Source: Acidimicrobiales bacterium (GTDB taxonomy: Bacteria; Actinomycetota; Acidimicrobiia; Acidimicrobiales; SHLQ01). From it: 45,835 nucleotides of DNA. The stretch covers positions 1 through 45,835 of the forward strand of contig SHLQ01000006.1 in the NCBI GenBank assembly GCA_004282895.1. Reading direction: 5' to 3'. Under the pieces are notes generated by a model. It was not told the DNA's origin. It did not search any database and worked only from the letters and a program-made list of their open reading frames with translations. Shown piece by piece: positions 1,958 through 23,942 of this stretch. The translations under genes and the position numbers were made by a program. Position 1 is the first letter of the stretch. The number at the start of each line of letters is the position of its first letter.

Positions 1958-2087
1958 GGCCAATCTGTCGCCCGACAAGACATTTCAATTTCATGTCGAT
2001 TACATTGCGGCCGGGCGACAAACGGTCACCGACCGTGGTGCGAATCACACATGAGATTCCCATCTGGTGACTGAAAGGGAAACTGAA

Positions 2088-4756: not shown

Positions 4757-6907
4757 CTACTCACATCGCGTGAGGACTTCGAACGAACTGCAGGTGTCCG
4801 TACCGACGCCGCCGTGACCGAAGTCGGTGCCGGTTCCTCCGACCATGCGGTCATTGCCGCCTCCACCAAACAGACGGTCATTGCCGGCGTGACCCTTCAG
4901 CTGATCCCGACCGTTGCCGGCCACCAACTCATCCGCTCCCGAGTTGCCCGACAAGCGGTCGATTCCCTTGCCGCCGTTGATCACATCGTTGCCTGGTCCG
5001 CCCTGCACAACGTCACGCCCCAAGCCGCCGTCGATTCGATCATTGCCCCGGTCACCGAAGATGCGATCGTTCCCTTCGCCACCGGAGATCACGTCCGATC
5101 CTCCGAGCGCACAGATGATGTCGTTGCCACCGAGCCCGTCGATCACATCAACGCCCGGTGTTCCCTGGATCACGTCGTTGCCCTCGGTCGGTGACTGGCC
5201 TTGACCAATCGAGACCGTGACGGGCCGCCCTCCGCACAGAACCGCAGCTGGCGGCATCGTGGTCGTTGTTGTCGTCGTCGTGGTAGTCGTTGTCGTGATC
5301 GGCGGACCAACCTGCGGGGCCTCGGCCAAGGTCGCCAGCAAAGCGGCCTTCGTAGTGCGGCTGCAGGCGGCACTCCCCTGGCGCAACGTGACCCTCTGAT
5401 TGATCGCACCGACGCGACAGCTTTCAAAGATGCCGTTCGGCCAGCGCACCAAGACCGGTGCGATCTGTGACGCCGACCCCAGACCGAAGTGCAGCGTCCC
5501 GGTGTCCTGCGCCCGATGATTGCGATGGCCGTTCTCTCGAACCTGCCAACTGTCCGCGCCCACGAAGACCTGCGCCCCCATGGCGTCCGGGTTGGAACCC
5601 TCAAGATCGATGGCAAGCCAATTGCCCGGCCCGCCCTTGTTCATGAGGAAGTGATCCGGCGCCCGATCGAAGTCGTAGCCGTTGCCGACCCAGGCGTCCA
5701 TCCAGCCGTCGTCATCGATGTCCGTCACCAAGATGCCTGCTGCAGTCTCGGCGATCGTTGACGGCAGGAGTGAGGTCCCGGCGATCGTGAAGTTGCCGAC
5801 ACCATCGTTGCGGAGGAGAACGTTTCGCTTCTGACCCTCCTCCTTGTGACTACAGCCCGCGAGAATGTCGAGATCGCCATCATTGTCGAAGTCGGCCGCA
5901 GCCGCTGATCGACAGTTGTCGATGAGCGGATCGATCGGCAGTGCCGGAGCGGTGCGAGGAGAGGCGCCGTCGATCAGGTCGTAGATCGCCAGCGGCAGCG
6001 GGCCGGCAAAATTGGCGGCCGATTGACCGCGCACAGCCAACATCTCTGGATGAAGGTCGCCGTCGAAGTCGCCGATGATCACTTCGCGCAGATGGCTGAT
6101 GGGGCCGTTGCGACGACGGGTCGCCGGTGTCGGCGCTGCGGTCAGCGTCGTCTTTCCCGTAGCGATCGAGCTCTCGTTCAGCGTGAAACTGTTGTGCACC
6201 ACCACAATCGGTGTCGCGGTTGGTCCGGTGGACGTCAGCTGGGCGAAACGAAGGCTGCCCGTCGACATCGACCCGTTGTTCGCCGCCTTCGTCCATGCCG
6301 AACCGTCGCCGTTGTTCAAGTACAACGCAGAGGGCACGTTGACGCCCGCGTTCACCGGCGGCGAGCGCAGATCGAGATTCGTGATGATGACATCCATGTC
6401 GCCGTCGACGTCGAAGTCCAGGAAGAGCGGCTGACGACCCCGGCCGGCAGTGTCGGTGATTTCCCCTGCGTCGGCCCGTTGCGCCAGTGTCCCACCGTTG
6501 TTGATGAACAGGCGATTGTCGTTATTGCGTCCGGACACCTCGAAGAGATCTTCGTCGCCGTCGCCGTCGATGTCCGAGAACGCCGCACCGTGGGTATCGA
6601 GCGCACTCACCCCGCCCGACTGCACCGCCGTACGAATGGTCGTCCCGGCACTGATGTCGATGAGCGCTTCCGATGTCGATCCGTGATTGTTCGACCAGAT
6701 GTCAACATGGGCGCCGCCGAGGTCCCGGGTCGTCGCTCCACTCCACGCTGGACTTGTTCCACCCTGCACCGCCGACGGCACCGTCTCCACCGAGAACCCG
6801 GCCCAGCCTTGCCCGCTCGCACCAGGCGCAAACGCCACCAGCGTCGCCACCACTGCCAACACGACAAGTACCTGTGCCCGCACTCCTCGCCAAGTAAACC
6901 GTGTCAT
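4757..6907 (-). CDS. Secreted VCBS/FG-GAP-ASPIC protein with C-terminal RTX repeats (copy 1)
   Basis: A 716-residue exported protein. ATG 6907 is preferred (AGGG 5 nt upstream, directly before the signal peptide); an in-frame GTG exists at 6925. The signal peptide ends at GASGQ (about residue 33). The body has FG-GAP/VCBS beta-propeller repeats with Ca-loop motifs such as DIDGDGDED, DFDVDGDMD, DFDNDGDLD and DIDDDGWMD. An ASPIC/UnbV-like domain follows (NWLAIDLEGSNPDAMGAQV to VRWPNGIFESC). Next come 13 consecutive Thr, then about 150 residues of RTX repeats (GGNDIICALGG, GGEGNDRIFGD) ending in LTRCE. Family knowledge suggests an extracellular Ca-dependent adhesive or matrix protein; no enzyme motif is seen. 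It is a tandem paralogue of the next gene upstream. Confidence 0.9.
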   Translation of the reverse strand: MTRFTWRGVRAQVLVVLAVVATLVAFAPGASGQGWAGFSVETVPSAVQGGTSPAWSGATTRDLGGAHVDIWSNNHGSTSEALIDISAGTTIRTAVQSGGVSALDTHGAAFSDIDGDGDEDLFEVSGRNNDNRLFINNGGTLAQRADAGEITDTAGRGRQPLFLDFDVDGDMDVIITNLDLRSPPVNAGVNVPSALYLNNGDGSAWTKAANNGSMSTGSLRFAQLTSTGPTATPIVVVHNSFTLNESSIATGKTTLTAAPTPATRRRNGPISHLREVIIGDFDGDLHPEMLAVRGQSAANFAGPLPLAIYDLIDGASPRTAPALPIDPLIDNCRSAAAADFDNDGDLDILAGCSHKEEGQKRNVLLRNDGVGNFTIAGTSLLPSTIAETAAGILVTDIDDDGWMDAWVGNGYDFDRAPDHFLMNKGGPGNWLAIDLEGSNPDAMGAQVFVGADSWQVRENGHRNHRAQDTGTLHFGLGSASQIAPVLVRWPNGIFESCRVGAINQRVTLRQGSAACSRTTKAALLATLAEAPQVGPPITTTTTTTTTTTTTMPPAAVLCGGRPVTVSIGQGQSPTEGNDVIQGTPGVDVIDGLGGNDIICALGGSDVISGGEGNDRIFGDRGNDRIDGGLGRDVVQGGPGNDVINGGKGIDRLSGNSGADELVAGNGRDQLKGHAGNDRLFGGGGNDRMVGGTGTDFGHGGVGTDTCSSFEVLTRCE

Positions 6908-6937
6908 TCCATCCCTACAAACCACGCTCCGTAGGCG

Positions 6938-7085: not shown

Positions 7086-9329
7086 CTAGAGCTCGAACTC
7101 GCAGCTCGTCTGGATCACAAATCCGGAACAGAAGTCGTCGCCGACCTTTCCGTAGCCCATGTCGTCGCCGTCGCCACCATCCATGCGGTCGTTGCCACCG
7201 CCGCCGGTGATCGTGTCGGCACCACGGTTTCCGAAGAGGCGGTCTCGACCGTTCGATCCGAAGATCTTGTCCTTGCCGGCGTTGCCGGAAATACGGTCGT
7301 TGCTTCGACCGCCTGTGAGGTGGTCGTTTCCGGCACCGCCTTGAATGACGTCTCGATCGACGCCACCGTCGATGGTGTCATTGCCTTCGTCACCGAAGAT
7401 GCGGTCCTTGCCGGCACCGCCCATGATGGTGTCGTTGCCCAGGCCTCCACAGATGAAGTCGTCGCCACCGAGACCATCGATGATGTCATCACCGTCGGTA
7501 CCGAGGATTACATCAGGACCTTCTGTCGGGGTTTCACCCTTCGAGAGGTCGACCGTCGCCACTCGGGCACGACACATCGGGCCGTCCGGGACCGTCGTCG
7601 TGGTGGTCGTCGTGGTTGTGGTGGTCGTCGTCGTGGTTGTGGTGGTCGTCGTCGTGGTCGGCACCGGGGTGCTTCCCGTGGCCTGAACCAGAGCGATATT
7701 GGTGATCGTTGTGCAGTCAGCGCTGCCCTTCGTGATCGTCACTCGACGGTCGACACCTTCACCGATCAGGCACTCTTCGACGTCGCCGTTGTTCCAGCGG
7801 ACGAGGATCGGTGCAAGGTCGGTTTCCGCACCGAGACCGAAGTGCAGAACACCAGTGTCCTGAACCAGGTGGGCCCGGTGACCGGTCTCACGAACCTGCC
7901 ACTTGGTCGTACCAACAAACACCTGAGCACCCATGGCGTCGGCGTTGCTGCCATCGAGCTCTAGCTGCAGCCAGTGGTTGCCGTTGCCACCCTTGTTGCG
8001 GAAGATGTGGTCGTTGCCGTTCTGGTCATCGAAGCCGTTGGCCACGAACGTGTCCATCCAGCCGTCCTTGTCGATGTCGACCGCAGCGACCGCGGTGGCC
8101 GTGTTCTTGGCCGTTGCGGGCAGCAGCGACGCCGCACCGATGGTGAAGTTTCCAGCGCCATCGTTGAGCAGGATGATGTTGCGATCCTGATCGGCTTCAA
8201 GGAACGTGCAGCCAGCAAAGATGTCGAGGTCGGCATCGTTGTCGTAGTCAGCCAGAGCGATCGAACGACAGTTGTCGGCGAGCGCATCGGCGCTGATTGC
8301 GTCCATTGTCGGGCTGACCAGCGGGTTGACGGTGATCACCGTCTTGGCCAGCGGAAGCTGACCCAACCAATCATCGGTCTCCGGATCTTCGTCGTCGTCG
8401 CTGCTGAGACGGTCGTCCTGGCGAGCGACGATGGCGTCCGGAACGAGGTCGCCGTCGATGTCGCCCAGGGCAATGTCACGGATGCGGGTAGCACCGGCGC
8501 CAGCACCCTGGATCCCGCGCACCGACTGCGTCGGGTCAGCCAACGTGGCCGAACCGGTTGCGATGCTGTCCAAGGCGAACGTAAATGCGTTCGACGAGAT
8601 AACGACGTTGTTCGTGCCTGGACCGGTACTCGTCAGATTGAACTGACGAACGTTGGAGTCGTTGATCACGTTGTTCGTGTCGGCGACCTTGGTCCAGCTG
8701 AGCCCGGTGCCGTCGTTGAGGTAGAGCTCACTCGGTGCCGGGTCGAGGAACGTCGCCGGGTCGGTCGGCGGCTGAACCTGAATGACCGTTCGGTCGAGGT
8801 TGGCGACAAACGCATCCATGTCGCCATCGAAGTCGATGTCAACCATGAGCGGCTGGCGTCCACGACCGGCGTTGTCGACGATTCCCGTCGGCGCAGCTTC
8901 GGTCAGAACGCCTGCGTTGTTGATGAAGACGCGGTTGTCGTTGTCGCGACCAGCCGTCTCGATGAGATCGTCATCACCGTCGTTGTCGAGGTCAGTGAAC
9001 ACGGCACCGTGCGAATCAGCTTCTCCGCCCGCACCAAACGCGTTGGCGAACAAGGCCGCTCCGCCGTTGTAGTCGATGAGGGTCTCCGACTCGTTGAAGT
9101 GGTTGTTGTTCCACACGTCAACACCAGCGCCGCCGATGTCCTCGGTGATGGCCACACCCCAACCGGGGCTGTCGAGCTTCGGCTGTTCGAAGGCCTGTAG
9201 TTGAGAAGGCGCAGTCAAGGCTTCAAACCCTGCCCATCCGCCTTGTGCTCCCGCAGTTGCCTGCGGTATCGCCAGAAGTGCCCCAAGAAGAGACAGTCCC
9301 AGCAACGAGTGAAATACCCGTCGTCGCAT
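7086..9329 (-). CDS. Secreted VCBS/FG-GAP-ASPIC protein with C-terminal RTX repeats (copy 2)
   Basis: A 747-residue paralogue of the neighbouring 4757-6907 product with the same domain order. The frame is open to 9521, but ATG 9329 begins a clear signal peptide (MRRRVFHSLLGLSLLGALLA, cleavage near TAGAQ) and has GGGG 9 nt upstream. Mature regions share phrases with copy 1: GGWAGFE, DVWNNNH, SHGAVFTDLDNDGDDDL, GRGRQPL. VCBS Ca loops (DIDFDGDMD, DIDGDLVPD, DYDNDADLD, DIDKDGWMD) and an ASPIC-like domain (HWLQLELDGSNADAMGAQV to ILVRWNNGDVEEC) follow. The linker holds 22 consecutive Thr. The RTX module starts after PMCRARV and ends QTSCEFEL. Export by Sec is indicated by the signal peptide; no type I secretion genes are in the window. 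Function is inferred as a Ca-dependent matrix or surface protein. Confidence 0.9.
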   Translation of the reverse strand: MRRRVFHSLLGLSLLGALLAIPQATAGAQGGWAGFEALTAPSQLQAFEQPKLDSPGWGVAITEDIGGAGVDVWNNNHFNESETLIDYNGGAALFANAFGAGGEADSHGAVFTDLDNDGDDDLIETAGRDNDNRVFINNAGVLTEAAPTGIVDNAGRGRQPLMVDIDFDGDMDAFVANLDRTVIQVQPPTDPATFLDPAPSELYLNDGTGLSWTKVADTNNVINDSNVRQFNLTSTGPGTNNVVISSNAFTFALDSIATGSATLADPTQSVRGIQGAGAGATRIRDIALGDIDGDLVPDAIVARQDDRLSSDDDEDPETDDWLGQLPLAKTVITVNPLVSPTMDAISADALADNCRSIALADYDNDADLDIFAGCTFLEADQDRNIILLNDGAGNFTIGAASLLPATAKNTATAVAAVDIDKDGWMDTFVANGFDDQNGNDHIFRNKGGNGNHWLQLELDGSNADAMGAQVFVGTTKWQVRETGHRAHLVQDTGVLHFGLGAETDLAPILVRWNNGDVEECLIGEGVDRRVTITKGSADCTTITNIALVQATGSTPVPTTTTTTTTTTTTTTTTTTTTTTVPDGPMCRARVATVDLSKGETPTEGPDVILGTDGDDIIDGLGGDDFICGGLGNDTIMGGAGKDRIFGDEGNDTIDGGVDRDVIQGGAGNDHLTGGRSNDRISGNAGKDKIFGSNGRDRLFGNRGADTITGGGGNDRMDGGDGDDMGYGKVGDDFCSGFVIQTSCEFEL
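7593..7658 (-). repeat. Low-complexity (ACN)22 tract encoding 22 consecutive Thr
   Basis: Twenty-two Thr codons, mostly ACG and ACC with two ACA, form an imperfect 21-nt periodicity in the linker between the ASPIC and RTX domains. The paralogue has 13 Thr at the same place. The length difference suggests slippage-driven variation of an O-glycosylatable linker. Confidence 0.9.
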
Positions 9330-9350
9330 ATCTATTGACCCCGTTTCGTG

Positions 9351-9364
9351 TCGTGTGTCGTGTG
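9351..9364. repeat. Tandem heptamer in the leader of VCBS-RTX copy 2
   Basis: Two exact copies of tcgtgtg (9351-9357, 9358-9364), flanked by partial copies on both sides, lie between the candidate -10 (9376-9381) and ATG 9329. Confidence 0.6.
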
Positions 9365-9375
9365 TCGTAACGCCG

Positions 9376-9381
9376 ATGGTA
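9376..9381 (-). promoter_or_regulatory. Candidate -10 box (TACCAT) for VCBS-RTX copy 2
   Basis: TACCAT on the minus strand lies 46 nt upstream of ATG 9329, giving a leader that contains the tandem heptamers and a GGGG Shine-Dalgarno. No clear -35 is seen. Confidence 0.3.
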
Positions 9382-9424
9382 GAACTACACCAGTTCGGTG
9401 AACCATGGGCTTCGCGGCCCTGTT

Positions 9425-9455
9425 TTGTTCTCGACACTCTCTTGTTCTCGACACT
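9425..9455. repeat. Direct repeat of 14 bp with 17-bp period
   Basis: ttgttctcgacact occurs at 9425-9438 and again at 9442-9455, the second copy running into the 25-bp hairpin repeat. Confidence 0.65.
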
Positions 9456-9536
9456 TCCGGTCGAGATCCCCACGCAGCTTCCACGGTCGCTCCACGCAGC
9501 TCCGCGATCACTTCTCGACACTTCCGGTCGAGATCC
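9445..9536. repeat. Two copies of a 25-bp hairpin-forming direct repeat
   Basis: Identical 25-bp units lie at 9445-9469 and 9512-9536. Each contains the dyad ctcgac-acttccg-gtcgag (6-bp stem, 7-nt loop). The units are separated by 42 bp that themselves contain two near-copies of ccacgcagctcc. Two copies with a non-uniform spacer do not make a CRISPR array. Confidence 0.75.
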
Positions 9537-9780: not shown

Positions 9781-9833
9781 AGTCCAAAAGCATCTGTTGT
9801 CTTTATGTGGTTGTGGGAGAGACTGGGTGGGTT

Positions 9834-11144
9834 ATGGCTTCAGTCCTCGCGCGCGTACGCGCCCTTGATCGTCAACAGATGGAGACGATCTTCACCAGCT
9901 CGATCTTCATGATCACTGCGGGGCTTACCTTCGTGAACACGATTCTCCTGGGCAACGCGCTGGGCGAAGCGGGGCGCGGTGCCGTGGCGGCCGCGTATGG
10001 CAACACCATCGTGCTGGGGTGGGCGTTCCAGATCGGCGTGCCCGCCGCGGCCGCATACTTTGCCAAGGACGTCAGCAACCGCCGCATCGCGATGTCCTCG
10101 TGGGCAATGACTGCAATGTTCGCCATTCCGATCGCGGCGATACTCATTCCCTTCTACCGCTGGCAGATGAACGGTGACGCGTTCCAGGAGTTCGGGACCG
10201 ACCTCAAGCTCTGGTACATCGCGTTCATTGTCGTCAACCTCTTCAACGGGCCCTTCCTCTCGGCCGTCTTCTGGCTGAGAGGTGTTGGCAACCTCGTCAA
10301 GTTCAACGTGTTGCTCGCGATTCCCCAAGTGCTGATCACCCTCGGGTACTCCGTGTTGTTCGTCCTCGATCGACTCACCGTGTTCAGCGCTCTTACCTCG
10401 ACGTTCATCATGATTGTCGTCGGGTGGACATTTGGCCTGGTCTCGACCGGTTCGCTGCCCGGTCGTGGATTCTCCCAAACCACGTTCAATGAAGTCCGCC
10501 ACTACTCACTTCGATCCTGGGTCGGCAATCTCTCGTTCTTCGTCAGCTTGCGTATCGATCAGATGTTGCTCGTCGGGATCGTGGCCACCGACCAGCTCGG
10601 GGTCTACGCCGTGGCCGCGGCGTTCTCAACCCTCTCCGGCCCGATCGCCCGCGGCGTCGCGCAGGGCCTCCTGCCGTTCGTGCGCAACGCGGCCAGCGAT
10701 GCCGAGCGCCTGACTCGCATTCGCCAAAGCCTTCGCTGGGTCTCGGTCGCGTCGGCGGTCACCCTCGTGGTCATCGCCGCGTCCGCAGAGTGGTTCCTGC
10801 CATTCATCTTCAACGACAAGTTTGAGGGTGCGGTTCGTCCACTGCTCCTTCTTTTGCCGGGTGCGTTCGCGACCGATGTGACGCAGGTGTACACGACGGC
10901 ACTCTCATCGTTCAACCGGCCCGAAGACGGCTCGAAGGCACAGATCGCTTCCGCCATCGCCACCGCCATTGGACTGCTCGTGCTCATCCGTCCCTATGGC
11001 ATCGACGGCGCTGCAATCACGACGTCCATCGCCTATTGGGTGGCTCTGCTCGTCTCCATGTTCTATTGGCGTCGCCTGAAAGGCCAGGTGCTACGAGGCG
11101 AAGCCACCGGTAACACTTCCTCACGCGAAGAGGTGCCCGCATGA
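9834..11144 (+). CDS. Wzx-type polysaccharide flippase (MOP superfamily)
   Basis: A 436-residue polytopic membrane protein that would flip the lipid-linked repeat unit across the membrane. ATG 9834 is chosen over GTG 9807 because GGGTGGG lies just upstream and it begins close to the first helix. Hydrophobic helices run along its whole length (FMITAGLTFVNTILLG, ILGWAFQIGVPAAAAYF, VSVASAVTLVVIAASAEWFLPFIF and others), with the MOP-family pattern LGEAGRGAVAAAYG after helix 1 and RSWVGNLSFFVSLRIDQMLL near the middle. It is the first gene of an operon; its stop overlaps the next start by 4 bp (ATGA), so translation is probably coupled to the Wzz-like partner. Confidence 0.88.
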   Translation: MASVLARVRALDRQQMETIFTSSIFMITAGLTFVNTILLGNALGEAGRGAVAAAYGNTIVLGWAFQIGVPAAAAYFAKDVSNRRIAMSSWAMTAMFAIPIAAILIPFYRWQMNGDAFQEFGTDLKLWYIAFIVVNLFNGPFLSAVFWLRGVGNLVKFNVLLAIPQVLITLGYSVLFVLDRLTVFSALTSTFIMIVVGWTFGLVSTGSLPGRGFSQTTFNEVRHYSLRSWVGNLSFFVSLRIDQMLLVGIVATDQLGVYAVAAAFSTLSGPIARGVAQGLLPFVRNAASDAERLTRIRQSLRWVSVASAVTLVVIAASAEWFLPFIFNDKFEGAVRPLLLLLPGAFATDVTQVYTTALSSFNRPEDGSKAQIASAIATAIGLLVLIRPYGIDGAAITTSIAYWVALLVSMFYWRRLKGQVLRGEATGNTSSREEVPA

Positions 11145-12064
11145 CCGTTGGCCTCTCCGCACTGTTTTCGCCGCGATGGCTCTTCCTGGTGGTGTTCTCC
11201 ACGCTGGTCGCCGCATTCGCCGCGTTTTCACTGGGTCTGCAGGCGCCGTCCCAGCACACCTCCACCACCTTCATCTACGGTCGACGCGTCGGCCACGTCG
11301 ACCGTCAGCTCGCCACCCTCGACGAACACCTTGATGACATCGTCAACGCGGTCGAGTTTCCCCAAGTGTTCGAAGCCGTTGAAGCCAAGACCGGCCTGAA
11401 GCTGGAGAAACAATACGACTTCACGATCGAGCGCATCGATGACATCCAGTCCGTGATCGAGATCACGGTAGTGGCCGACCAGCCAGCTGATGCCGAACGA
11501 GTCGCCCGGATCATGGCCGAGGAGGTCGTGCGGTTTGTCCTTGACGGACAGGAAGCATCGCTGGTTTCAGAGATCGCCTCACTCGACGCCTCGATCGCCG
11601 ACCTGGAAGCCGAACAGGGCCGACTCCGCGCATTATCGCTCGGTGTCTCCCCGATCGTCGCCCAGAATCGCGTCGAACGGGCGCTGCTCAATCTCGACCG
11701 CACCGCTCCAGACGCCGCCGCCCGTGAAGCCAGCCTGCGACTCGACCTGGCCAACATTCGGCCCCAAGCCGATGAATACATCCAAAACGCCTCATCTCTT
11801 GGGGATCTTCAAGCCGAGCGTGCCGTCACAGACAACGAACGACTCGATGTCGTCTCGAGCCTCGATTCGATCAACGATGAGTGGTATCGCTCGGTCACTC
11901 CGGTCGAAGCGACGTCGAATCTACCGATAGCCATCGCCATGGCGTTCGCCGCGGGAGTCCCGGCGGCCATCATCGCCTCAGTCCTCGTCATCATGCGCCT
12001 GAATCAACGAATGACCGGGCGGTTGTTCGGCGCGCCGCCCACCCGAGACAATCTCGCGGTTTGA
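11141..12064 (+). CDS. Wzz-like polysaccharide co-polymerase (second copy)
   Basis: A 307-residue inner-membrane protein: TM1 at about residues 12-33 (WLFLVVFSTLVAAFAAFSLGL), an extracytoplasmic helical domain with long coiled coil (LVSEIASLDASIADLEAEQGRL), and TM2 near 265-288 (IAIAMAFAAGVPAAIIASVLVI) with a short cytoplasmic tail. The two-TM layout matches Wzz co-polymerases without a kinase domain. It resembles the third copy (17675-18829) in the region RV..QL...DIV....FP.V...VE..TGL..E, so those two are paralogues. The ATG overlaps the flippase stop. Confidence 0.82.
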   Translation: MTVGLSALFSPRWLFLVVFSTLVAAFAAFSLGLQAPSQHTSTTFIYGRRVGHVDRQLATLDEHLDDIVNAVEFPQVFEAVEAKTGLKLEKQYDFTIERIDDIQSVIEITVVADQPADAERVARIMAEEVVRFVLDGQEASLVSEIASLDASIADLEAEQGRLRALSLGVSPIVAQNRVERALLNLDRTAPDAAAREASLRLDLANIRPQADEYIQNASSLGDLQAERAVTDNERLDVVSSLDSINDEWYRSVTPVEATSNLPIAIAMAFAAGVPAAIIASVLVIMRLNQRMTGRLFGAPPTRDNLAV

Positions 12065-14378: not shown

Positions 14379-15602
14379 GTGGCCACCCAGATCTCCGTGA
14401 CGAGTTATTACTACCGGCGCGGCGGCGCCGAAGCCGTCATGTTGGATCAGAACGACCTGCTCCGCGAACGCGGCTGGGCGATCGTCCCGTTCGCGATGAA
14501 CTACGAACAGAACCTCGACACCGACTATGACGAGTACTTCGTCGAAGAGATCGATTTCGCCAGCGACTACACCCCGGTCGAGAAGGTACGCAAGGTCGTG
14601 AAATCGGTCTACAGCCTCGAAGCCAGAGCGGCGATCGGCCGCCTCATCGACGACACGAACCCCGACATCGTGCACGCCCACAACGTGTACCACCACCTCA
14701 CGCCGGCGATCTTCGGTGCCGCCCAGAAGAAGGGTGTCCCCACCGTGATGACGGTGCACGATCTCAAGATCGGCTGTCCGTCGAAACTCATGCTCGCACC
14801 GGACGGCGTGTGTGAACGCTGCAAGGGCGGCAAGACCTGGAACGCGATCGGACAACGTTGTCTGAAGGACAGCCGCGCCCTGTCCGCCGTCGCCGCGTTC
14901 GAGACATCGCTGCACCGCCTACTCGGCAGCTATCGCAAACACGTCGACCGATTCATCATCCCCAGCCACTTCCACATGAACAAGCTGATCGACTGGGGAC
15001 TGCCGGCGGACAAAGCCCGCTATCTGCCAAATGCCGTCGACCTGTCGACGCTCGAGCCGAACAACGCCGTCGGCGAAGGATTCATCTTCGTCGGCCGCCT
15101 GTCAGAGGAGAAGGGGCTACGGACGTTCATCGAAGCGGTGGCCGCAGCTGGTGTCGCCGCCACCATCGTTGGTACCGGCCCGCAGGAGGACGAGCTGCGC
15201 CAGCTTGCGGCCGACACCGGCGCCGATGTCGAGTTCGCCGGGTATCAGACCGGGGACACGCTGTTCCAGCTCATCGCAGATTCGCGGGCATTGGTGCTCC
15301 CATCGGAGTGCTACGAGAACGCGCCGGTCGTGTTGTTGGAGGCCTATGGCGTTGGTAGACCCGTGCTCGGAAGCAACCTCGGCGGCATTCCGGAGCTGAT
15401 TCTCGACGGGGAGACCGGGCTGGTGGCCGAAGCCGGCAACGTGGTGTCGTTCGCAGCCCAACTCACCGCCCTGCAGGAGATGCCGGCCGCAGAAATCACG
15501 GAGATGGGGCGAGCTGGCCGCGAGTTCGCCCAAACCACATTCACGAAAGAACAGTACCGGGACGGCCTGCTCGACATCTATCGCGGGCTCGGAGTTGGCT
15601 GA
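14379..15602 (+). CDS. Glycosyltransferase family 4 with Cys-rich insert
   Basis: A 407-residue GT-B enzyme. GTG 14379 has AGGA 6 nt upstream. N-terminal features are YYYRRGGAEAVML, DIVHAHNVYHHL and TVMTVHDLKIGCPSKLML. A cysteine cluster CERCKGG...C follows at about residues 146-165, common to a GT4 subset and possibly metal-binding. The C-terminal half has FIFVGRLSEEKGL and the donor-binding EX7E motif ENAPVVLLE. It probably elongates the EPS repeat unit; sugar specificity is unknown. It is in the flippase operon, 32 bp after the lipoprotein gene. Confidence 0.9.
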   Translation: MATQISVTSYYYRRGGAEAVMLDQNDLLRERGWAIVPFAMNYEQNLDTDYDEYFVEEIDFASDYTPVEKVRKVVKSVYSLEARAAIGRLIDDTNPDIVHAHNVYHHLTPAIFGAAQKKGVPTVMTVHDLKIGCPSKLMLAPDGVCERCKGGKTWNAIGQRCLKDSRALSAVAAFETSLHRLLGSYRKHVDRFIIPSHFHMNKLIDWGLPADKARYLPNAVDLSTLEPNNAVGEGFIFVGRLSEEKGLRTFIEAVAAAGVAATIVGTGPQEDELRQLAADTGADVEFAGYQTGDTLFQLIADSRALVLPSECYENAPVVLLEAYGVGRPVLGSNLGGIPELILDGETGLVAEAGNVVSFAAQLTALQEMPAAEITEMGRAGREFAQTTFTKEQYRDGLLDIYRGLGVG

Positions 15603-15618: not shown

Positions 15619-15624
15619 GATGTG

Positions 15625-16356
15625 ATGACGCCTGAAGAGCTCTGCACCACCACCGCCGCCCCAATCGGAACAATCGGCGCCCACTTCTATTTCCAGCCCG
15701 AGACCCTGGCTGCAGGAAAGGAGATCGGGCTGGACGGGTTCCGGTTCTACATCCTCGGCCGTGGCGGTGTCATGGGCGACGTCGACAACGCGGTCGTTCA
15801 GTCCGCGTTCGGCTACTTCGATCCCGCCCTCATCGAGAGGATGTGGGATTCGGCTCGCGAGCGGGTTCCGGCCCGTGAGGCTGCCGCCGCCTATCTGGAG
15901 GCCTCCTACACGGTGGCCAGAAGCACCGTCGCAGCCTCGCCCACGCTCGAAGCGTTCGTCGACGCCGCAGCGAAAGTCGTCGCGAACGTGGACCGGTCGG
16001 GTCTGCCTCTCTTCGCCGGTTATGCGTCAATGCCGGTGCCCGATGACACCGTCGCTGCGGCGTATCACTACGCCGTCCTCCTGCGTGAGCTGCGCGGCAG
16101 CGTGCACCTTGCCTCCGTCGCTGCCGCTGGTCTGCACTCCCGCGTGGCGCATCAGATGCGCCGACCCGACATGGTCGAGTTCTTTGGGTGGACAGAGGAA
16201 CTCGACGTCGTTGATGAGCACCATGATCGACGGGCCCGCGCGGACGAGATGACCGACGACGCGATGACCCAGATCTACTCCGTGCTGAGCGCCGACGAAG
16301 CCGCCGCATTTGCCGTCGGCGTTGAGGAGATGGCGCAGGCCCTCGAGGTCACCTGA
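15625..16356 (+). CDS. SCO6745-like conserved actinobacterial protein
   Basis: A 243-residue soluble, mainly alpha-helical protein. The stretch FYFQPETLAAGKEIGLDGFRFYILGRGGVMGDV, followed by the FGYFDP region and two repeated helical halves (EAAAAYLEASYTVARSTV; YHYAVLLRELRGSVHLASV), resembles the uncharacterised SCO6745 family of actinomycetes. No catalytic motif is evident and no EPS role is implied. It is probably transcribed from its own promoter. The last 8 bp overlap the convergent phosphoesterase gene. Confidence 0.72.
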   Translation: MTPEELCTTTAAPIGTIGAHFYFQPETLAAGKEIGLDGFRFYILGRGGVMGDVDNAVVQSAFGYFDPALIERMWDSARERVPAREAAAAYLEASYTVARSTVAASPTLEAFVDAAAKVVANVDRSGLPLFAGYASMPVPDDTVAAAYHYAVLLRELRGSVHLASVAAAGLHSRVAHQMRRPDMVEFFGWTEELDVVDEHHDRRARADEMTDDAMTQIYSVLSADEAAAFAVGVEEMAQALEVT

Positions 16357-17674: not shown

Positions 17675-18829
17675 ATGACGGAAGGCGAACACAGCAGCGC
17701 AGGAGAACTCAGCTCCTTTCTGCACCTTTCGGGCTGGCGCCCACTGTTTCTCGCCCTCGTCGCGGGCCTCGCCGGCGCCGTTGGCCTCTTTCTCGCGCTC
17801 GGCGAACCCAGCCAATGGGTCTCGCGTTATGTGATCAACGGCCAGCGCGTCGCCGAAAGCAATCTGCAGCCCGGCCAACTCGACATCTTCGTCGAGGAAA
17901 TTGTGCAAACCAGTCGCTTTCCGGTCGTCGTCGACGAGGTTGAACGCGAGACCGGTCTGGTGCACGAAGAGGACTATGAGATCACGATCTCGCAGGCACC
18001 GGCCAGTGTGGCGCTCGCCAACGTCAACGTTGTCGCCGACCGCCCGGAAGACAGCCAGGCGGTTGCCGTACAAACCAGCATCTCCGCTCTTCGAGTCACG
18101 CTGGTCAAGAACCGGACCGGCTTGGAGGCCAATCGCGACCGCCTCGACCGCGAGGTCGCGAACACCACGGCTCGCGCCAACGATCTCATCGGAGAGGCGG
18201 GTGGCGTGAGCCCCGACACCGCCTACACCGCCGCTGCGAATCGACTGCTCGAACAACGCAGCGACCCGGACCCAGACGTCTCCACCGCTCGACTCGAAGC
18301 CGACGTCGCTCGCCTCGAACCTCTGGATACCGAATACCGCCAACTCCAGACATCGCTCGCGCAGCTCAACGTCCGACTCGGCGATCTGAACAACTCGATC
18401 AGTGAAGCCAGCGGTCACATCGAAGCTCTCGACCGCGAGCCTGACGCCCCGTTCATCATCTCCGAGGTGATCACCGAGGAAACGTCGCGCATCGCCAAAC
18501 TGCTCACCGGTGTCATGCTCTTCGCTATCCCCGCGGCGTTGCTTACGATCCTTGGTTTTGTTGCCTTTGACGGCTTCCGTCGTCGGTCGCTCGAGCCGCT
18601 GGTACCGTCGCAGCCGATCGATTCCTACGGCATTCTCGACGCCAACTCACAACGGGCACTGCCCGAGGCCAGCGTCACCAAGCTGCAGGTGGTCGACGAA
18701 GCCGATCTTCTCGCGGAAGACGAAGGCGCCATTCCTGTCGGCGAAGCGATCGACGACATCGTCGATGACCCTGACGATGATCCCGAGCCGAAGAAGGCCA
18801 AGGACAGCCGATGGGGCCGCAGCGCATGA
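17675..18829 (+). CDS. Wzz-like polysaccharide co-polymerase (third copy) with acidic cytoplasmic tail
   Basis: A 384-residue protein. ATG 17675 gives MTEGEHSS and a normal short cytoplasmic N-terminus; upstream in-frame codons look non-coding. TM1 is at about 22-42 (LFLALVAGLAGAVGLFLAL), coiled-coil segments cover about 150-250, and TM2 is near 277-298 (IAKLLTGVMLFAIPAALLTIL). About 85 further residues follow, ending in a very acidic stretch (DDIVDDPDDDPEPKKAK). Such a long C-terminal tail is unusual for a Wzz without a kinase and might dock a cytoplasmic partner. It heads the operon with sulfotransferase, polymerase and GT2, so it is the likely length regulator for that polymerase. Confidence 0.85.
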   Translation: MTEGEHSSAGELSSFLHLSGWRPLFLALVAGLAGAVGLFLALGEPSQWVSRYVINGQRVAESNLQPGQLDIFVEEIVQTSRFPVVVDEVERETGLVHEEDYEITISQAPASVALANVNVVADRPEDSQAVAVQTSISALRVTLVKNRTGLEANRDRLDREVANTTARANDLIGEAGGVSPDTAYTAAANRLLEQRSDPDPDVSTARLEADVARLEPLDTEYRQLQTSLAQLNVRLGDLNNSISEASGHIEALDREPDAPFIISEVITEETSRIAKLLTGVMLFAIPAALLTILGFVAFDGFRRRSLEPLVPSQPIDSYGILDANSQRALPEASVTKLQVVDEADLLAEDEGAIPVGEAIDDIVDDPDDDPEPKKAKDSRWGRSA

Positions 18830-18845: not shown

Positions 18846-19757
18846 ATGACGGATCGGATTGCGCCGATCTTCATCGTCGGGGCGGGGCGGAGCGGATCAA
18901 CGGCGTTTCATCACGCGTTCACTCGACACCCCGACGTGTCGTGGGTCTCCAAGATCCTCGACGTTCTCCCCCGCGCCGAGAAGTTGAATGCCGCCGTGTT
19001 GCGCGGACTCGACCAACCCGGCGTTGGGTCGCTGCTCATGAAGGGATTGATCGAACCCGGACATCTCAAACCGAGCGAGGCCTACGCCTACTGGGAGCGA
19101 ATCGCCCCCGGATTCAGCGAACCGTTCCGTGATCTGGTCGCAACCGACCTGACCGAACGCACGAAGCAGAACATGCAGGAGGCGGTGGAACGGCTCACGA
19201 TCGACGAACGGCCGGTGCCGCTCATCAAGATCACCGGGTGGCCTCGTATCGGCTACCTGCAGGAAGCATTCCCCGACGCCCGATTCGTCCACATCGTTCG
19301 GGACGGTCGAGCGGTCGTGAACTCGATTCTGCAAGTCGACTTCTGGGACGGCTGGAGGGGTACGAAGGGTTGGCGCGGCCTCGATATGACCCCCGAGCAG
19401 CAGGATCGCTGGGATGCCAGCGGAAAGTCGTTCGTGACCCTTGCCGCCATGGAGCTCTCCGACATGCTCGACGCGATGGTGGTTGCCGAACCGCTCGTCC
19501 CGCCAAACCAGTTCCTCGAACTTCGTTATGAAGACCTGTGCGCCGATCCGACCGAGTCGTTTCGTATGGTGACCGCGTTCTGCGAGATGAATCACCCCGA
19601 CTCGTTCGACCGAGCCGTTGTCGACTTCGGTTTCCGAACAACGAACGACAAGTGGCAACGCGACCTGACGACGTTGCAGCAACAGCAGCTGGAAGCCGAG
19701 CTCGGCCCGCACCTTGACCGGTGGGGTTACCCGCGAGTGTTCGGCACGTCGTCATGA
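18846..19757 (+). CDS. PAPS-dependent sulfotransferase
   Basis: A 303-residue cytosolic sulfotransferase. The 5'-phosphosulfate loop is seen as IFIVGAGRSGSTAFH (residues 8-22) and the 3'-phosphate motif as RFVHIVRDGRAVVNSI (about 145-160). It would transfer sulfate from PAPS to a hydroxyl or amine, here most likely a sugar of the EPS unit or its lipid-linked precursor. That substrate is inferred from position between wzz and wzy. ATG 18846 is set by the first motif; in-frame codons upstream overlap the wzz-like gene in another frame. Its TGA overlaps the next ATG (ATGA). Confidence 0.88.
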   Translation: MTDRIAPIFIVGAGRSGSTAFHHAFTRHPDVSWVSKILDVLPRAEKLNAAVLRGLDQPGVGSLLMKGLIEPGHLKPSEAYAYWERIAPGFSEPFRDLVATDLTERTKQNMQEAVERLTIDERPVPLIKITGWPRIGYLQEAFPDARFVHIVRDGRAVVNSILQVDFWDGWRGTKGWRGLDMTPEQQDRWDASGKSFVTLAAMELSDMLDAMVVAEPLVPPNQFLELRYEDLCADPTESFRMVTAFCEMNHPDSFDRAVVDFGFRTTNDKWQRDLTTLQQQQLEAELGPHLDRWGYPRVFGTSS

Positions 19758-21253
19758 CCGACACCGCCGCTCACACCTCCGACCACTTCACCATTCGCAG
19801 CGAAGATACCTCGACCGTCGAAGAGGTCACCGTCCCCTCACCGGGACCAATGGCCATCTTCGTCGTGCTCGCGGCCGTTGCCTCGGGCCTCGTCGTGGCC
19901 CTCGGCTTTCAAGCGGTGAAGCCGAACACGCCGTTTGTGATTCTCGGCGGCACCCTTCTCGTGGCGGCCATTCTTGCGATTGTCGGCTTGTACCGGTACC
20001 AGTGGTTCCTCTTGATCACGCTCGCTATTCGACCGGCACTCGATGACCTCGTCGCCGACGAGTTCGGCAGCTTCCAACCCTCCGCGATCCTCGGCATTCT
20101 GGTCATTCTCGTCACCAGCCTGCACCTCATCAGCCGACGAGCACACGGTCGATGGAAACACGGCACCCACATGTCCTTGGGATACATCGCGTTCTTCGTG
20201 TTGTTCGTGCCATCCTTCATCACCTCCGTCGACCGAGGAGTATCCCAGGCCGCGATGTTCGGCGTGGCCTCCGTGATGTTGCTGTACATCGCCATGGAAC
20301 AGCACCTGATGGACGACCGTCGGTTCATGTATCGGATGCTCACCGCATCTCTGCTGGGTCTGATTGTCCCCACGATCACCGGCTTCGTGCAGTTCGGCTG
20401 GACCGGCACCCTCGACCCCGGCGGTTCCGGGCTCATTCGCATCGACGGCTCGTTTGCCCATCCGAACACCTACGCCACCTTTCTGGTCTTTGCGATCCTC
20501 ATGATGATCGGGGTCGCACCAACCCTCGACGTCCGGCGTCGCCTCATCCTCCTGAGCTTCACCACCTTCACTGCGTTCCTCATGGTCGCCAGCTTCGCTC
20601 GTGGCGCGTGGGCCAGCTTCCTGCTGGGAGCGTTGCTCATGGCCTCTCGGGTCAACAAGAAGCTCGTCTTCGTGATCGGGTTCGGCGCAGTCGCGGCTGC
20701 CGCAGCAGTACCCGGCGTCGGTGACCGCATCGACAACCTGTTCGCCACAACCGGTGCCGGCGGCGGCGTGAAGACCGACGATTCGCTCGGCTGGCGGATC
20801 GGCTATTGGGGTCGCATCTGGCCGTTCTTCTACAACAACCCGGTAACCGGCATCGGTATCGATGCCACCAAGACCCAAACCGTCGAGGGCAAGGACCCCC
20901 ACAACAGTTTCCTGCAGCCGATCATCGAAGGCGGCGTTGTCGGCGCCATCGGATTCTTCGGCCTCCTGATCATCGCCACCATCGCCGCCCTGAAGCTGTG
21001 GCGCCTCACCAAGGGCACCTCCCTCGACCATCGCACGAAGATGATCAGCGTTGCATCGATCACCGCCGTGTTCTCCGTCTCCGCCCAGCTCCTCACCGAA
21101 AATGTGATGCTCAACACGGTCGTCTGGTGGTACATCAACATTGCGCTGGCTTGGATCGCCGTCGTCGTGTGGCGACCGGAATCGGAGCCGGCTGAACCCG
21201 AGTCGATTGAGGATCAACTCGACGTCCGACAACCGATCGAGGAGCTCGTATGA
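19754..21253 (+). CDS. O-antigen ligase/Wzy-type polysaccharide polymerase
   Basis: A 499-residue polytopic membrane protein with about a dozen hydrophobic helices. The Wzy_C (PF04932) signature region is visible: GSFAHPNTYATFLVFAILMM, MVASFARGAWASFLLGALL, then the extracytoplasmic loop with GWRIGYWGRIWPFFYNNPVTGIGI and DPHNSFLQPIIEGGVVGAIGF. It would polymerise flipped repeat units, or ligate the polymer to a carrier, on the outer face of the membrane. ATG 19754 overlaps the sulfotransferase stop and leaves a hydrophilic N-terminus of about 32 residues. The 3' end overlaps the GT2 gene by 4 bp. Confidence 0.88.
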   Translation: MTDTAAHTSDHFTIRSEDTSTVEEVTVPSPGPMAIFVVLAAVASGLVVALGFQAVKPNTPFVILGGTLLVAAILAIVGLYRYQWFLLITLAIRPALDDLVADEFGSFQPSAILGILVILVTSLHLISRRAHGRWKHGTHMSLGYIAFFVLFVPSFITSVDRGVSQAAMFGVASVMLLYIAMEQHLMDDRRFMYRMLTASLLGLIVPTITGFVQFGWTGTLDPGGSGLIRIDGSFAHPNTYATFLVFAILMMIGVAPTLDVRRRLILLSFTTFTAFLMVASFARGAWASFLLGALLMASRVNKKLVFVIGFGAVAAAAAVPGVGDRIDNLFATTGAGGGVKTDDSLGWRIGYWGRIWPFFYNNPVTGIGIDATKTQTVEGKDPHNSFLQPIIEGGVVGAIGFFGLLIIATIAALKLWRLTKGTSLDHRTKMISVASITAVFSVSAQLLTENVMLNTVVWWYINIALAWIAVVVWRPESEPAEPESIEDQLDVRQPIEELV

Positions 21254-22143
21254 CCACACCTCGACTCACCATTGGCATGCCGGTGTACAACGGCGGCGAC
21301 TACATCGCCGAAGCGCTCATCAGCCATCTCGAACAGGACTTCACCGACTTCGAACTGATCGTCTCCGACAACTGCTCCGACGATGCGACACCCGACATCG
21401 TGCAGGAGTTCGTGCGTTCCGACGATCGGGTTCGGTACAGCCGCACCACCGAGAACGTTGGTGGACCCGCGAACTTCAACCGATGCTTCCGGCTGGGCGA
21501 GGCCGATCTCTTCCGCTGGGCCGCAGCCGACGACCGGATCGAGCCCGGCTATCTGTCCAAGGTCATCCACATGATGGACGCGGACGCGGGCATCGCAATT
21601 GGACACTGCGACAGCGTGTTGATCGACCCGGCCAGCGATCCGATGCTCGAGATGGATAAAGGCTGGCTCGGCGGTGATGGGTATCTCGAGGCAATCCGGT
21701 TGCATCCGCCCAGCGGGGATACGCGATTCCAATCCGACCAGCCGCATCACCGTGTCGACGCGGTGATCAACAACAACCACCGCAACTTCTACATCTTCGG
21801 TGTGATGCGCCGAGCGCTCATGCTGCAGACAAGACTGCACGGCCTCTTCTACGGCGGCGACCGCACGTTGTTGGTCGAGCTGGCCATTCGAGGCCGGTTC
21901 CACAAGGTTCCCGAGCCACTGTTCGCCTCACGCAGCCACGCCAAGAACTCTGGCAGAAACAGTCTGAATTTCGAGGAACTCAAACAACACGGCGCCGAAG
22001 ACCTCCGCTACGCCGGCCAGGTCCTGAAGGGATATGTCCAGGCGATTCGTGGGGGCGAGCTGAGCCAGGCCGACGAACTTCGTTGTCTGGGTATGGTCGC
22101 CAAGAAGGCAAAACAGCCGACTCGGCTGCTTCGTGGGTGGTAG
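21250..22143 (+). CDS. Glycosyltransferase family 2
   Basis: A 297-residue GT-A enzyme with LTIGMPVYNGGDYIAEAL, FELIVSDNCSDDATPDIV and ENVGGPANFNRCF. The metal-binding DxD position reads WAAADDRIEPGYL, so the motif is ADD rather than a strict DxD. FYGGDRTLLVELAIRG in the C-terminal half fits the acceptor side of the family. No TM segment is seen, so it acts in the cytosol on the growing repeat unit. Translationally coupled to the polymerase gene by an ATGA overlap. Confidence 0.9.
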   Translation: MTTPRLTIGMPVYNGGDYIAEALISHLEQDFTDFELIVSDNCSDDATPDIVQEFVRSDDRVRYSRTTENVGGPANFNRCFRLGEADLFRWAAADDRIEPGYLSKVIHMMDADAGIAIGHCDSVLIDPASDPMLEMDKGWLGGDGYLEAIRLHPPSGDTRFQSDQPHHRVDAVINNNHRNFYIFGVMRRALMLQTRLHGLFYGGDRTLLVELAIRGRFHKVPEPLFASRSHAKNSGRNSLNFEELKQHGAEDLRYAGQVLKGYVQAIRGGELSQADELRCLGMVAKKAKQPTRLLRGW

Positions 22144-22187: not shown

Positions 22188-22709
22188 ATGCCCATCTACA
22201 CACTCGGCGATGAGTGGACGCCTGATATTCACCCCGACGCCTACATCCACCCGCTGGCGGTTCTGATCGGCCGAGTGGTCATCGGACCGGACTCGTCCGT
22301 CTGGCCGGGTGCGGTGCTGCGGGCGGATGACAACACGATCACCATCGGTGCCCGCAGCAGCATTCAGGACGGCGCGGTGCTGCATTGCACCCATGAGCAC
22401 CAGACGATCATCGGCGACGACTGCACAGTCGGCCACAACGCCCATCTCGAAGGATGCACACTCGAGGACGCGTCTCTGGCCGGTTCGGGTTCGGTAGTGC
22501 TGCACGGCGCAGTCATTTCGACCGGCGCGCTGGTGGGCGCCAACGCAGTCGTTTCGGGGGGCAAGACGGTGCCGCCCAACGCCATGGCACTCGGCATCCC
22601 CGCTCGATTCAAGGAAGACGCCAACTCGCGCGAGGACAACATCATGAACGCCGAAAACTACGTTCGCCGGGCGCGGCGCTACCGCGACAACCTCCGTCGC
22701 ATCGACTGA
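22188..22709 (+). CDS. Gamma-carbonic-anhydrase-like hexapeptide-repeat protein
   Basis: A 173-residue left-handed beta-helix protein. Hexapeptide turns run from IHPLAVLIGRVVIG to GALVGANAVVSGG. Histidines in AVLHCTHEH and TVGHNAHLEG match the metal-ligand positions of the gamma-class carbonic anhydrase/YrdA/PaaY group. The C-terminus has an amphipathic helix (NYVRRARRYRDNLRRI) as usual for this group. Carbonic anhydrase activity is not guaranteed, since many family members are inactive or of unknown function. It lies among EPS genes, but its own leaderless promoter suggests independent expression. Confidence 0.85.
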   Translation: MPIYTLGDEWTPDIHPDAYIHPLAVLIGRVVIGPDSSVWPGAVLRADDNTITIGARSSIQDGAVLHCTHEHQTIIGDDCTVGHNAHLEGCTLEDASLAGSGSVVLHGAVISTGALVGANAVVSGGKTVPPNAMALGIPARFKEDANSREDNIMNAENYVRRARRYRDNLRRID

Positions 22710-22793
22710 TGTACCCACCGTGATGGGTCCGATGGCTCTGGGGGCAGACGACGGGTTCTCCTACCGTTGTCAGCAGTGGCCAGTGAGGACTCC

Positions 22794-23942
22794 ATGACGC
22801 GTACGAACAACAAGCCTTTGCGCATCGCGATGATCGGCACGCGCGGTATGCCAGCGCACTACGGCGGCGTCGAGACCGTGGTCGACGTTCTGGCCCGCGA
22901 GCTCGTCCGCCGAGGCCACGACGTCACCGTGTTCTGCCGCTCGGAGGACTATAACTCTCACCCACCGATGATCGGTGGTGTTCACCTCGTGTACCTGCCC
23001 TCGTCGTCCTCGCCCGGGGTTGGGGCAATGGTCCATGCGATGCGCGGCGCCGTGTACACGATCGGCCGCGGCTTCGACATCATCCATTTCCATGCGCTCG
23101 GGCCGGGCCTCATGGCGATCCTCACTCGACTGTTCACCAGGGCCAAGACCGTGGTGACCGTCCATGGCCGGGACGACAAGCGGGACAAGTGGGGCCGCAT
23201 GGCGCGTCTCATCCTTCGCGTCGCCGCAACATCCAGCGCCCGCGTCCCCCACGCCACCCTCGTCGTGTCGGAAGCCCTGGCCGAAGAATACGCACGGGAG
23301 TTCGGACGCGCGACCACCGTCGTCCCCAACTCCACCCACGCCATCCCCGAGGTGGTAGCGGGAAAAACACTCGAACGCTTCAATCTCGCCGAGGGCCACT
23401 ACTTCGTGTCGGTTGGCCGCCTCGTGCCGGAGAAGGCCCCCCATGAACTCATCGCCGGCTATCGGCGGGCGCACACCGACCTGCCCCTCGTGATCGTGGG
23501 TGGCGCCGCCGGAACCGAAGACTATGAGTCGCATCTCCGCGAGCTCGCCGAAGGTGATGAGCGGGTCATCTTCACCGGTCCGCTGTACGGCGATGATCTG
23601 GCGGAAATGCTCACGAACGCCGGTGTCTTCGTCACCAGCTCACATCTCGAAGGACTACCCACAGCGCTGATCGAGGCAGGCCGAGCGGCATTGCCCATCA
23701 TCGCCAGCGATCTGCCGTCACACCAGGAAATCCTCGCGACCAAGGCCGGCGCGTTGGGCCAACGTGTCTATCCGGTCGGTTCGATCGACGACCTCGGGGA
23801 GATGATGACACTCGTTGGCGACAACCTCGAAGAAGAACGTCACGGCGCAAAACTCATGGCGGTTGAGCTCGACGCCCGCTACGCACCGCCGCGTACCGCC
23901 GAGGTACATGAGGCGGCGTACTACGCGACCCGCGGACTCTGA
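22794..23942 (+). CDS. Glycosyltransferase family 4 (DUF1972-like N-terminus)
   Basis: A 382-residue GT-B enzyme. ATG 22794 has GAGG 6-7 nt upstream, and a TACCGT box lies 26 nt before the start. The N-terminus IAMIGTRGMPAHYGGVETVVDVLA is the signature of the DUF1972/rhamnosyltransferase-like GT4 group. The C-terminal half has YFVSVGRLVPEKAPHELI and SSHLEGLPTALIEAGRAALPII, with Glu at the donor-site positions. It probably adds a deoxyhexose or hexose early in EPS assembly; specificity is inferred from family only. It ends 4 bp before the convergent MBL gene. Confidence 0.9.
   Translation: MTRTNNKPLRIAMIGTRGMPAHYGGVETVVDVLARELVRRGHDVTVFCRSEDYNSHPPMIGGVHLVYLPSSSSPGVGAMVHAMRGAVYTIGRGFDIIHFHALGPGLMAILTRLFTRAKTVVTVHGRDDKRDKWGRMARLILRVAATSSARVPHATLVVSEALAEEYAREFGRATTVVPNSTHAIPEVVAGKTLERFNLAEGHYFVSVGRLVPEKAPHELIAGYRRAHTDLPLVIVGGAAGTEDYESHLRELAEGDERVIFTGPLYGDDLAEMLTNAGVFVTSSHLEGLPTALIEAGRAALPIIASDLPSHQEILATKAGALGQRVYPVGSIDDLGEMMTLVGDNLEEERHGAKLMAVELDARYAPPRTAEVHEAAYYATRGL

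Follow-up and report, generated by a model that had tools for sequence, protein, structure and literature searches.

Background

Within the bacteria, sulfated polysaccharides have been regarded as a feature of cyanobacteria alone (PMC8205485; also PMC13390465), although a review from 2024 lists six genera of bacteria with such polymers (PMC11625862). Here, we analyse a sulfotransferase gene that overlaps a gene for a Wzy_C membrane protein (wzy) on a contig of 45,835 nucleotides (SHLQ01000006.1, assembly GCA_004282895.1), referred to below as the window, from an Acidimicrobiales bacterium. We consider it probable that this gene serves sulfation in a surface-polysaccharide pathway of the Wzx/Wzy type and that the pathway is fixed in a single genus of the Acidimicrobiales, with the substrate and the product predicted from gene content.

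Synechan is a sulfated exopolysaccharide (EPS) whose composition has been measured, with a ratio of 1:1:1:5:2 published for the xssS mutant (PMC8205485). In its cluster (xss), the Synechocystis sulfotransferase XssE is likewise encoded beside wzy, among genes for Wzx, Wzy and a polysaccharide co-polymerase (PCP). We took the gene names from that paper and assigned XssE and XssF to annotated coding sequences by gene order: the sulfotransferase at 43343-44293 of Synechocystis pSYSM (XssE) adjoins a coding sequence annotated as hypothetical, which by its place is XssF/Wzy. XssE is a distant homologue of the window protein (22.7% identity over 87% of the query, E 5e-6). The xss cluster belongs to another phylum, however, and its wzy lies on the opposite side of the sulfotransferase gene; it further encodes XssA, which is a second sulfotransferase, as well as a priming transferase and the XssQRS regulators (PMC8205485), none of which was seen in the window.

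In the Actinomycetota, a sulfated EPS was proposed in 2026 for the wps-1 cluster (WpsB, WpsH) of Actinoplanes missouriensis from gene clusters and mutants (PMC13390465). This single proposed case bears out the statement of the initial annotation that such polymers are sparsely described in actinomycetes. Like the window, in which Wzz is represented by topology only, wps-1 is a Wzx/Wzy/Wzz cluster with predicted sulfotransferases, the genes of which are required for normal sporangia, and the sulfate of its product is likewise proposed, from genes and mutants. Compared by description, it differs in having two sulfotransferases of other InterPro groups and a neighbouring sulfate-activation gene (PMC13390465). 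A third comparison is offered by Pontiella sulfatireligans, in which a sulfated glycosaminoglycan-like exopolymer was detected and a glycosyltransferase-rich cluster includes a sulfotransferase and a sugar transaminase; this organism is marine and belongs to the Verrucomicrobiota, the comparison is again by description, and the term "Wzy" is absent from the paper's text (PMC7356697). In the literature searched, no sulfated-polysaccharide cluster was recognised for Acidimicrobiia. The kind of system is therefore already known from synechan, with wps-1 as an actinomycete precedent, and the most interesting part of the present case is the presence of genes for the synthesis of 3'-phosphoadenosine 5'-phosphosulfate (PAPS) without a detected reductase.

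The sulfotransferase gene and its conservation within the genus

The genome to which the window belongs, as contig C263, comprises 3.48 Mb in 316 contigs and is 85% complete (G000). The features on which the analysis turns are as follows.

18846..19757, forward strand: PAPS-dependent sulfotransferase (PF13469), 303 amino acids, from the open reading frame (ORF) and a Pfam match
18879..18908, forward strand: GAGRSGSTAF, residues 12-21, read in the sequence and taken by us to be the 5'-phosphosulfate-binding loop
19269..19328, forward strand: FPDARFVHIVRDGRAVVNSI, residues 142-161, read in the sequence and presumed to be the 3'-phosphate-binding motif
19754..19757, forward strand: ATGA stop/start overlap of the sulfotransferase TGA with the wzy ATG, read in the sequence
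19754..21253, forward strand: Wzy_C (PF04932) membrane protein, 499 amino acids, E 1.6e-17, 12 hydrophobic stretches
21250..22143, forward strand: family 2 glycosyltransferase (GT2), from Pfam, its start overlapping the wzy stop by ATGA at 21250-21253
17675..18829, forward strand: Wzz-like protein by topology only, with hydrophobic stretches from residues 21 and 272, its gene stopping 16 nt ahead of the sulfotransferase start

The match of the window sulfotransferase to Sulfotransfer_3 (PF13469) spans the entire profile (1-216 of 216; E 2.9e-25, 90.3 bits against a cut-off of 27). Sulfotransfer_1 was also matched in the Pfam scan (E 8.1e-10), while an NCBIfam scan at E 0.001 returned no family. 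The protein has no hydrophobic (membrane-like) stretch. In an alignment of 12 rows, comprising the window sulfotransferase and 11 homologues, residues R15, S16, G17, S18, T19, K128, R152 and S160 are unchanged throughout, so that the PAPS motifs, described as clear in the initial annotation, are both present with their key residues intact. The protein is thus a member of the PAPS-dependent sulfotransferase superfamily, and PAPS transfer is predicted from its family, its motifs and its modelled fold.

Orthologues were identified in all 11 genomes of the genus, and those of the ten relatives, which are uncultured Acidimicrobiales metagenome-assembled genomes (MAGs) with no habitat given in their records, are 72-75% identical to the window protein; at E 1e-10, none was found in eight genomes from other genera of the family. 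The order Wzz-like gene, sulfotransferase, wzy, GT2 is kept in all ten relatives. So is the 4-bp overlap between the sulfotransferase gene and wzy, as ATGA in eight of them and GTGA in two; the overlap noted at the outset is confirmed. Overlaps of 4 bp also occur at other gene pairs of the window (11141-11144 and 21250-21253), so the overlap by itself is insufficient proof of coupling and its conservation alone counts. The ten relatives amount to fewer than ten independent lineages because some of their junctions are near-identical (L034/L036, L039/L040). Identity across relatives is 72-75% for the sulfotransferase, 71-78% for GT2 and 71-78% for GT4a (five loci), and lower for wzy (61-64%) and the Wzz-like protein (40-51%). 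The upstream side is more variable: a metallophosphoesterase gene was found in two of the ten relatives, and L033 shows a rearrangement of the flippase gene and the BNR gene.

Association with Wzy_C outside the genus

Homologues were sought in samples of 395 genomes of the class (limit 1e-12) and 396 genomes of the phylum (limit 1e-15), and were found in 11 and 12 of them, respectively, genus members counted in. Distinct genomes from outside the genus that carry a homologue number 19, and one Chloroflexi MAG carries a homologue with 40% identity. All 19 non-genus genomes were searched for Wzy_C, and 10 of them have such a gene no more than 15 kb from the sulfotransferase homologue, whereas the per-genome counts of Wzy_C matches would predict ~ 0.6 (an expectation that excludes four Wzy_C rows, the second pieces of one frame, and retains weak rows below the cut-off). 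Since the genomes are non-independent draws, the ratio of observed to expected cases weighs more here than a simulated probability. In seven of the nine non-genus genomes lacking a nearby Wzy_C, the homologue is located on a contig of at most 10.6 kb, and in two genomes (G039 and G242) wzy immediately follows the sulfotransferase gene. The association with Wzy_C is thus found again in further families, both of the class and of the phylum. The ORF-calling procedure used for neighbouring genes was crude and overlooked or misplaced some of them, such as the sulfotransferases at L076, L078 and L083; conclusions were drawn only from neighbour rows confirmed by PF04932, tblastn or Pfam.

A search of plasmid sequences yielded matches in 18 of 72,556 records at E 0.01. 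The match in a Sinorhizobium medicae plasmid, a distant homologue from another phylum, adjoins Wzz and O-antigen-ligase genes, and the matched region of a Nonomuraea record carries no annotation.

As a separate observation, a second sulfotransferase of a different clade (tandem, Sinorhizobium-like or XssA-like) occurs near the homologue in several non-genus loci (L020, L022, L023, L024, L025, L048, L050, L052 and L054), an arrangement that by analogy is reminiscent of the XssA/XssE pair.

Sulfate activation without a detected reductase

In the window genome, cysD, cysN and cysC are adjacent on contig C102 (L089, 1036-3999). Strong PF01507 matches were obtained in 10 of the 11 genus genomes, all of them CysD: that of the window genome itself and nine others at 77-88% identity. 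The kinase of adenosine 5'-phosphosulfate (APS) is present in the same ten genomes, on the same contig as cysD and about 2 kb from it. The only genus genome without CysD and APS kinase is G016, which is 73% complete. No PAPS/APS reductase of the CysH type was detected by the PF01507 search in any of the 11 genomes, and all 20 rows of that search are accounted for, consisting of 10 CysD, 9 GMP synthases and 1 tRNA sulfurtransferase-like protein (G016). In the sister genera, the same search revealed a reductase in five of eight genomes (G001, G002, G003, G006 and G008). Three of these reductases score above the curated cut-off as whole ORFs, two were scanned as fragments and fall just below it, and all five align with one another. 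The difference (0/11 versus 5/8) corresponds to a Fisher p of 0.005, or 0.009 without the two genus genomes that are less than 80% complete, both rough values for related genomes.

The pattern is also seen in G010 (96% complete, 1% contaminated), where CysD and APS kinase are present and neither a reductase nor a NIR_SIR match was found. NIR_SIR matches occur in 4 of the 11 genus genomes; all four are fragments that score best against NirA-type models and below the cut-offs. They look NirA-like, and a sulfite reductase in these four genomes is conceivable but less likely. Given that the searches, at the sensitivity used, detected no PAPS reductase in the genus, PAPS probably feeds sulfotransferases there and not cysteine synthesis. 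A further-reaching proposal is that the genus has lost PAPS reductase and retains CysD-CysN-CysC only for the sulfation of surface glycans, in which case sulfate would be a building block of the matrix and not a sulfur source, with the sulfotransferase beside wzy as a main sink. We put this forward tentatively, as slightly more doubtful than credible.

A second locus of ~ 11 kb in the window genome (L084, G000:C135, 53-10900) contains two sulfotransferase genes together with GT2, Wzy_C and RTX genes, and one of its sulfotransferase ORFs also matches GT28_C.

Proposed pathway

Further genes of the locus bear on the pathway.

9807..11144, forward strand: Wzx-like flippase (Polysacc_synt_3, PF13440), from Pfam and hydrophobic stretches
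11141..12064, forward strand: another protein of Wzz-like topology, having two hydrophobic stretches, its gene overlapping that of the flippase by 4 bp
14379..15602, forward strand: family 4 glycosyltransferase (GT4), conserved neighbour, from Pfam
22188..22709, forward strand: hexapeptide-repeat protein, conserved neighbour, nearest to gamma carbonic anhydrase, PaaY and CaiE models, below curated cut-offs
22767..23942, forward strand: GT4 glycosyltransferase, conserved neighbour, from Pfam

The genes for the hexapeptide protein, GT4b and a DegT aminotransferase come next after the conserved block in all eight relatives whose contigs extend far enough. The flippase, Wzy_C, GT2 and two GT4 genes of the window together make up a Wzx/Wzy-type gene set, within which the Wzy_C protein (19754..21253) is likely a polymerase rather than a ligase. 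For the protein encoded at 17675..18829 the Pfam scan gave no match, and neither of the two proteins of Wzz-like topology has a significant one.

Polysaccharide sulfation is well supported because the neighbourhood is kept within the genus, Wzy_C lies near homologues outside it, and PAPS genes are present without a detected reductase. The sulfated exopolysaccharide named in the initial annotation is favoured by this gene context, by the Wzy_C association and by the PAPS genes, and its product keeps the standing of a prediction. In the pathway that we envisage, sulfate would be converted to PAPS by CysD, CysN and CysC, whose genes lie on contig C102 and not in the window, and the soluble sulfotransferase would bind this PAPS via its conserved loops. 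The sulfuryl group would then be transferred to a sugar hydroxyl of an undecaprenyl-linked repeat unit at the cytoplasmic face of the membrane. The flippase would export the sulfated unit, the Wzy_C protein would join units into a sulfated polymer, and the Wzz-like protein may set polymer length. The gene overlaps may serve to keep the sulfotransferase, the polymerase and GT2 in step at translation. PAPS is cytoplasmic and the sulfotransferase lacks a hydrophobic stretch; thus, sulfation most likely precedes export by Wzx. The general Wzx/Wzy scheme in the synechan paper agrees with this order (PMC8205485).

A number of observations weigh against this reading. The genus relatives are mostly incomplete, fragmented genomes. 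Outside the genus, the homologues of G062 and G105 are located on contigs of 40 kb and 196 kb, respectively, without a nearby Wzy_C, and among the plasmid matches that of Palleronia adjoins carotenoid genes and that of Stanieria a P450 gene, so the wider sulfotransferase family is mixed. Three sister genomes (G004, G005 and G007) have CysD alone, with no PAPS reductase and no sulfotransferase orthologue, and reductase loss is therefore not tied to the sulfotransferase gene alone. Sulfotransferase matches were found on five contigs of the window genome in all; they are potential other users of PAPS, so the window enzyme need not be the only one. XssE, which of the relatives comes nearest to a product that has been measured, shares only about 23% identity with the window protein, and xssE deletion left the Synechocystis bloom and EPS substantially unchanged (PMC8205485). 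None of the window proteins scanned was recognised as a priming sugar-phosphate transferase, the rest of the genome not having been searched. Two results described below count on the same side: the lack of a firm order among the deeper forks of the sulfotransferase tree and the nearness of the model to tyrosylprotein sulfotransferases (TPSTs).

Alternative substrates and the placement of the enzyme

The alternative that survives best, although we regard it as unlikely, is that the acceptor of the sulfate is not a polymer but a glycoside, either lipid-linked or of a secondary metabolite (a sulfoglycolipid or a glycosylated small molecule), made by the same glycosyltransferases, with the Wzy_C protein acting as a ligase that attaches the sulfated glycan to another carrier. 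PF04932 is described as O-antigen ligase and covers both ligases and polymerases, and the carotenoid and P450 neighbours of the Palleronia and Stanieria matches and the lack of a priming transferase among the scanned proteins would fit such a product. The joint occurrence of a flippase, two Wzz-like topologies and Wzy_C in the window speaks for polymer assembly instead, as do the retention of the Wzz-like protein, sulfotransferase and wzy together in all ten relatives and the recurrence of Wzy_C outside the genus. The family assignment suits the glycoside as well, since the glycolipid sulfotransferase NodH is placed in PF13469 by the 2024 review (PMC11625862). A pSymA stretch, sought for NodH, gave no match in tblastn with four seeds at E 1e-3.

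The initial annotation had proposed a comparison of carbohydrate and other-substrate clades. In a tree of 49 rows and 315 columns, the genus rows form one clade (100/100) and the XssA-like enzymes are separate (100/100). A further group, supported at 92/94, unites XssE with the Sinorhizobium gene and four other rows. The forks between the genus clade, the XssE/Sinorhizobium group and other PF13469 clades carry no firm order. The only rows with a small-molecule context are those of Palleronia and Stanieria, both on long branches. Thus, the comparison does not discriminate between substrates: the grouping with small-molecule enzymes that would have refuted the initial annotation did not appear, the genus clade not being joined to these two rows, but neither is this clade firmly joined to XssE, and characterised small-molecule enzymes lie outside the tree.

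Another alternative is that the enzyme resembles protein-tyrosine sulfotransferases in function and acts on a secreted or surface protein, for example, the neighbouring RTX/ASPIC proteins. The structure model, built from the 12 aligned sequences, has a mean predicted local distance difference test (pLDDT) score of 80 and a predicted template modelling (pTM) score of 0.82, with weak stretches at residues 37-40, 71-74 and 167-176. All 50 Protein Data Bank (PDB) entries listed as similar (Z 12.1-18.2) are sulfotransferases by title. The closest folds among the matches listed are TPST1/2 (Z 17.4-18.2, 218-225 residues, root-mean-square deviation 3.0-3.5), and a TPST is also the nearest solved structure by sequence profile (E 9.2e-8). 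They are followed, among the matches listed, by CurM and an olefin-synthase domain (Z 16.1-16.6), by STF1 and STF9 of mycobacteria (about 15) and, at lower rank, by the 3-O- and N-sulfotransferases of heparan sulfate (Z 12.6-13.6). XssE, which comes from the synechan EPS cluster, itself matches CurM and TPSTs by sequence; therefore, the ranking by fold and sequence is silent on the substrate, and the TPST-like fold was not accepted as a sign of tyrosine sulfation.

Moreover, identity to TPST1/2 is 20-23% over the aligned part, and the window protein lacks their E-E-T-R stretch, which we take to hold the catalytic Glu; the aligned position reads S-K-I-L-D, although residues 37-40 are weakly modelled. 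In that same weak stretch, D39 is unchanged in all 12 alignment rows and is a candidate catalytic base on the model. Known tyrosine sulfation occurs in the secretory lumen, whereas the window protein has no hydrophobic stretch, and the tight gene pair that is conserved is the one with wzy. Taken together, we find tyrosine sulfation very improbable. Least probable of all is that the sulfotransferase is a co-transcribed passenger of the operon with an unrelated substrate: four-base overlaps elsewhere in the window mean that an overlap alone shows no common pathway, but the pair is kept in 10/10 relatives and homologues in further families, within the class and the wider phylum, again occur near Wzy_C.

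RTX proteins and other genes of the window

Ca-binding RTX proteins were placed in the same locus by the initial annotation, and three RTX proteins are indeed encoded upstream of the operon in the window.

7086..9521, reverse strand: RTX + FG-GAP + UnbV/ASPIC protein, from profile matches, with a putative link to glycans
4757..6925, reverse strand: RTX + FG-GAP + UnbV/ASPIC protein, from profile matches
2067..3869, forward strand: RTX + right-handed beta-helix protein, from profile matches

Proteins with RTX motifs also occur upstream of the operon in G010, G012 and G011, the three relatives in which further-upstream DNA was examined. RTX genes are, however, numerous in the window genome, with a count of at least 28 spread over 21 contigs in 3.5 Mb (28 frames taken from 116 matches, with 150 of 160 candidates scored), and the same search was positive in only 2 of 14 control genomes; given this abundance, nearness to the operon means little, and the RTX association was set aside as evidence of the calcium bridge suggested earlier. 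Of the five contigs of this genome with sulfotransferase matches, three (C263, C135 and C158) also carry RTX genes at a distance of about 10 kb or less from the match. The rough binomial p of 0.02 makes this a lead at most, since the distance and the number of loci (24) were chosen after the data had been seen. At L085 (G000:C158, 1861-6804), an RTX gene matching the window RTX/ASPIC protein is located ~ 2 kb from a sulfotransferase match; the RTX3/ASPIC profile was built from the window protein alone, as no relatives passed.

Three further genes were recorded in the cluster. A large BNR/sortilin-like protein (11881-14346), for which the best NCBIfam model is the F510_1955 family, below its cut-off, is present in all four relatives with contigs of sufficient length (L033, L037, L038 and L041). 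An SCO6745-family helix-turn-helix (HTH) protein (15622-16356), found in five relatives (L032, L035, L037, L038 and L041), is a possible regulator. The ORF of the DegT-type aminotransferase extends over 25476-27092, and its start may be too early because homology in several relatives begins only near residue 111-146.

Implications

Sulfate groups alter the charge, water binding and metal binding of a biofilm matrix. The pattern described here, with a sulfotransferase gene beside wzy, cysDNC present and cysH absent, is suggested as a genome signature by which other cases may be found. A genus-wide, gene-coupled case in the Actinomycetota, in which PAPS synthesis is apparently uncoupled from sulfate reduction, would widen the known range of sulfated polysaccharides in bacteria.

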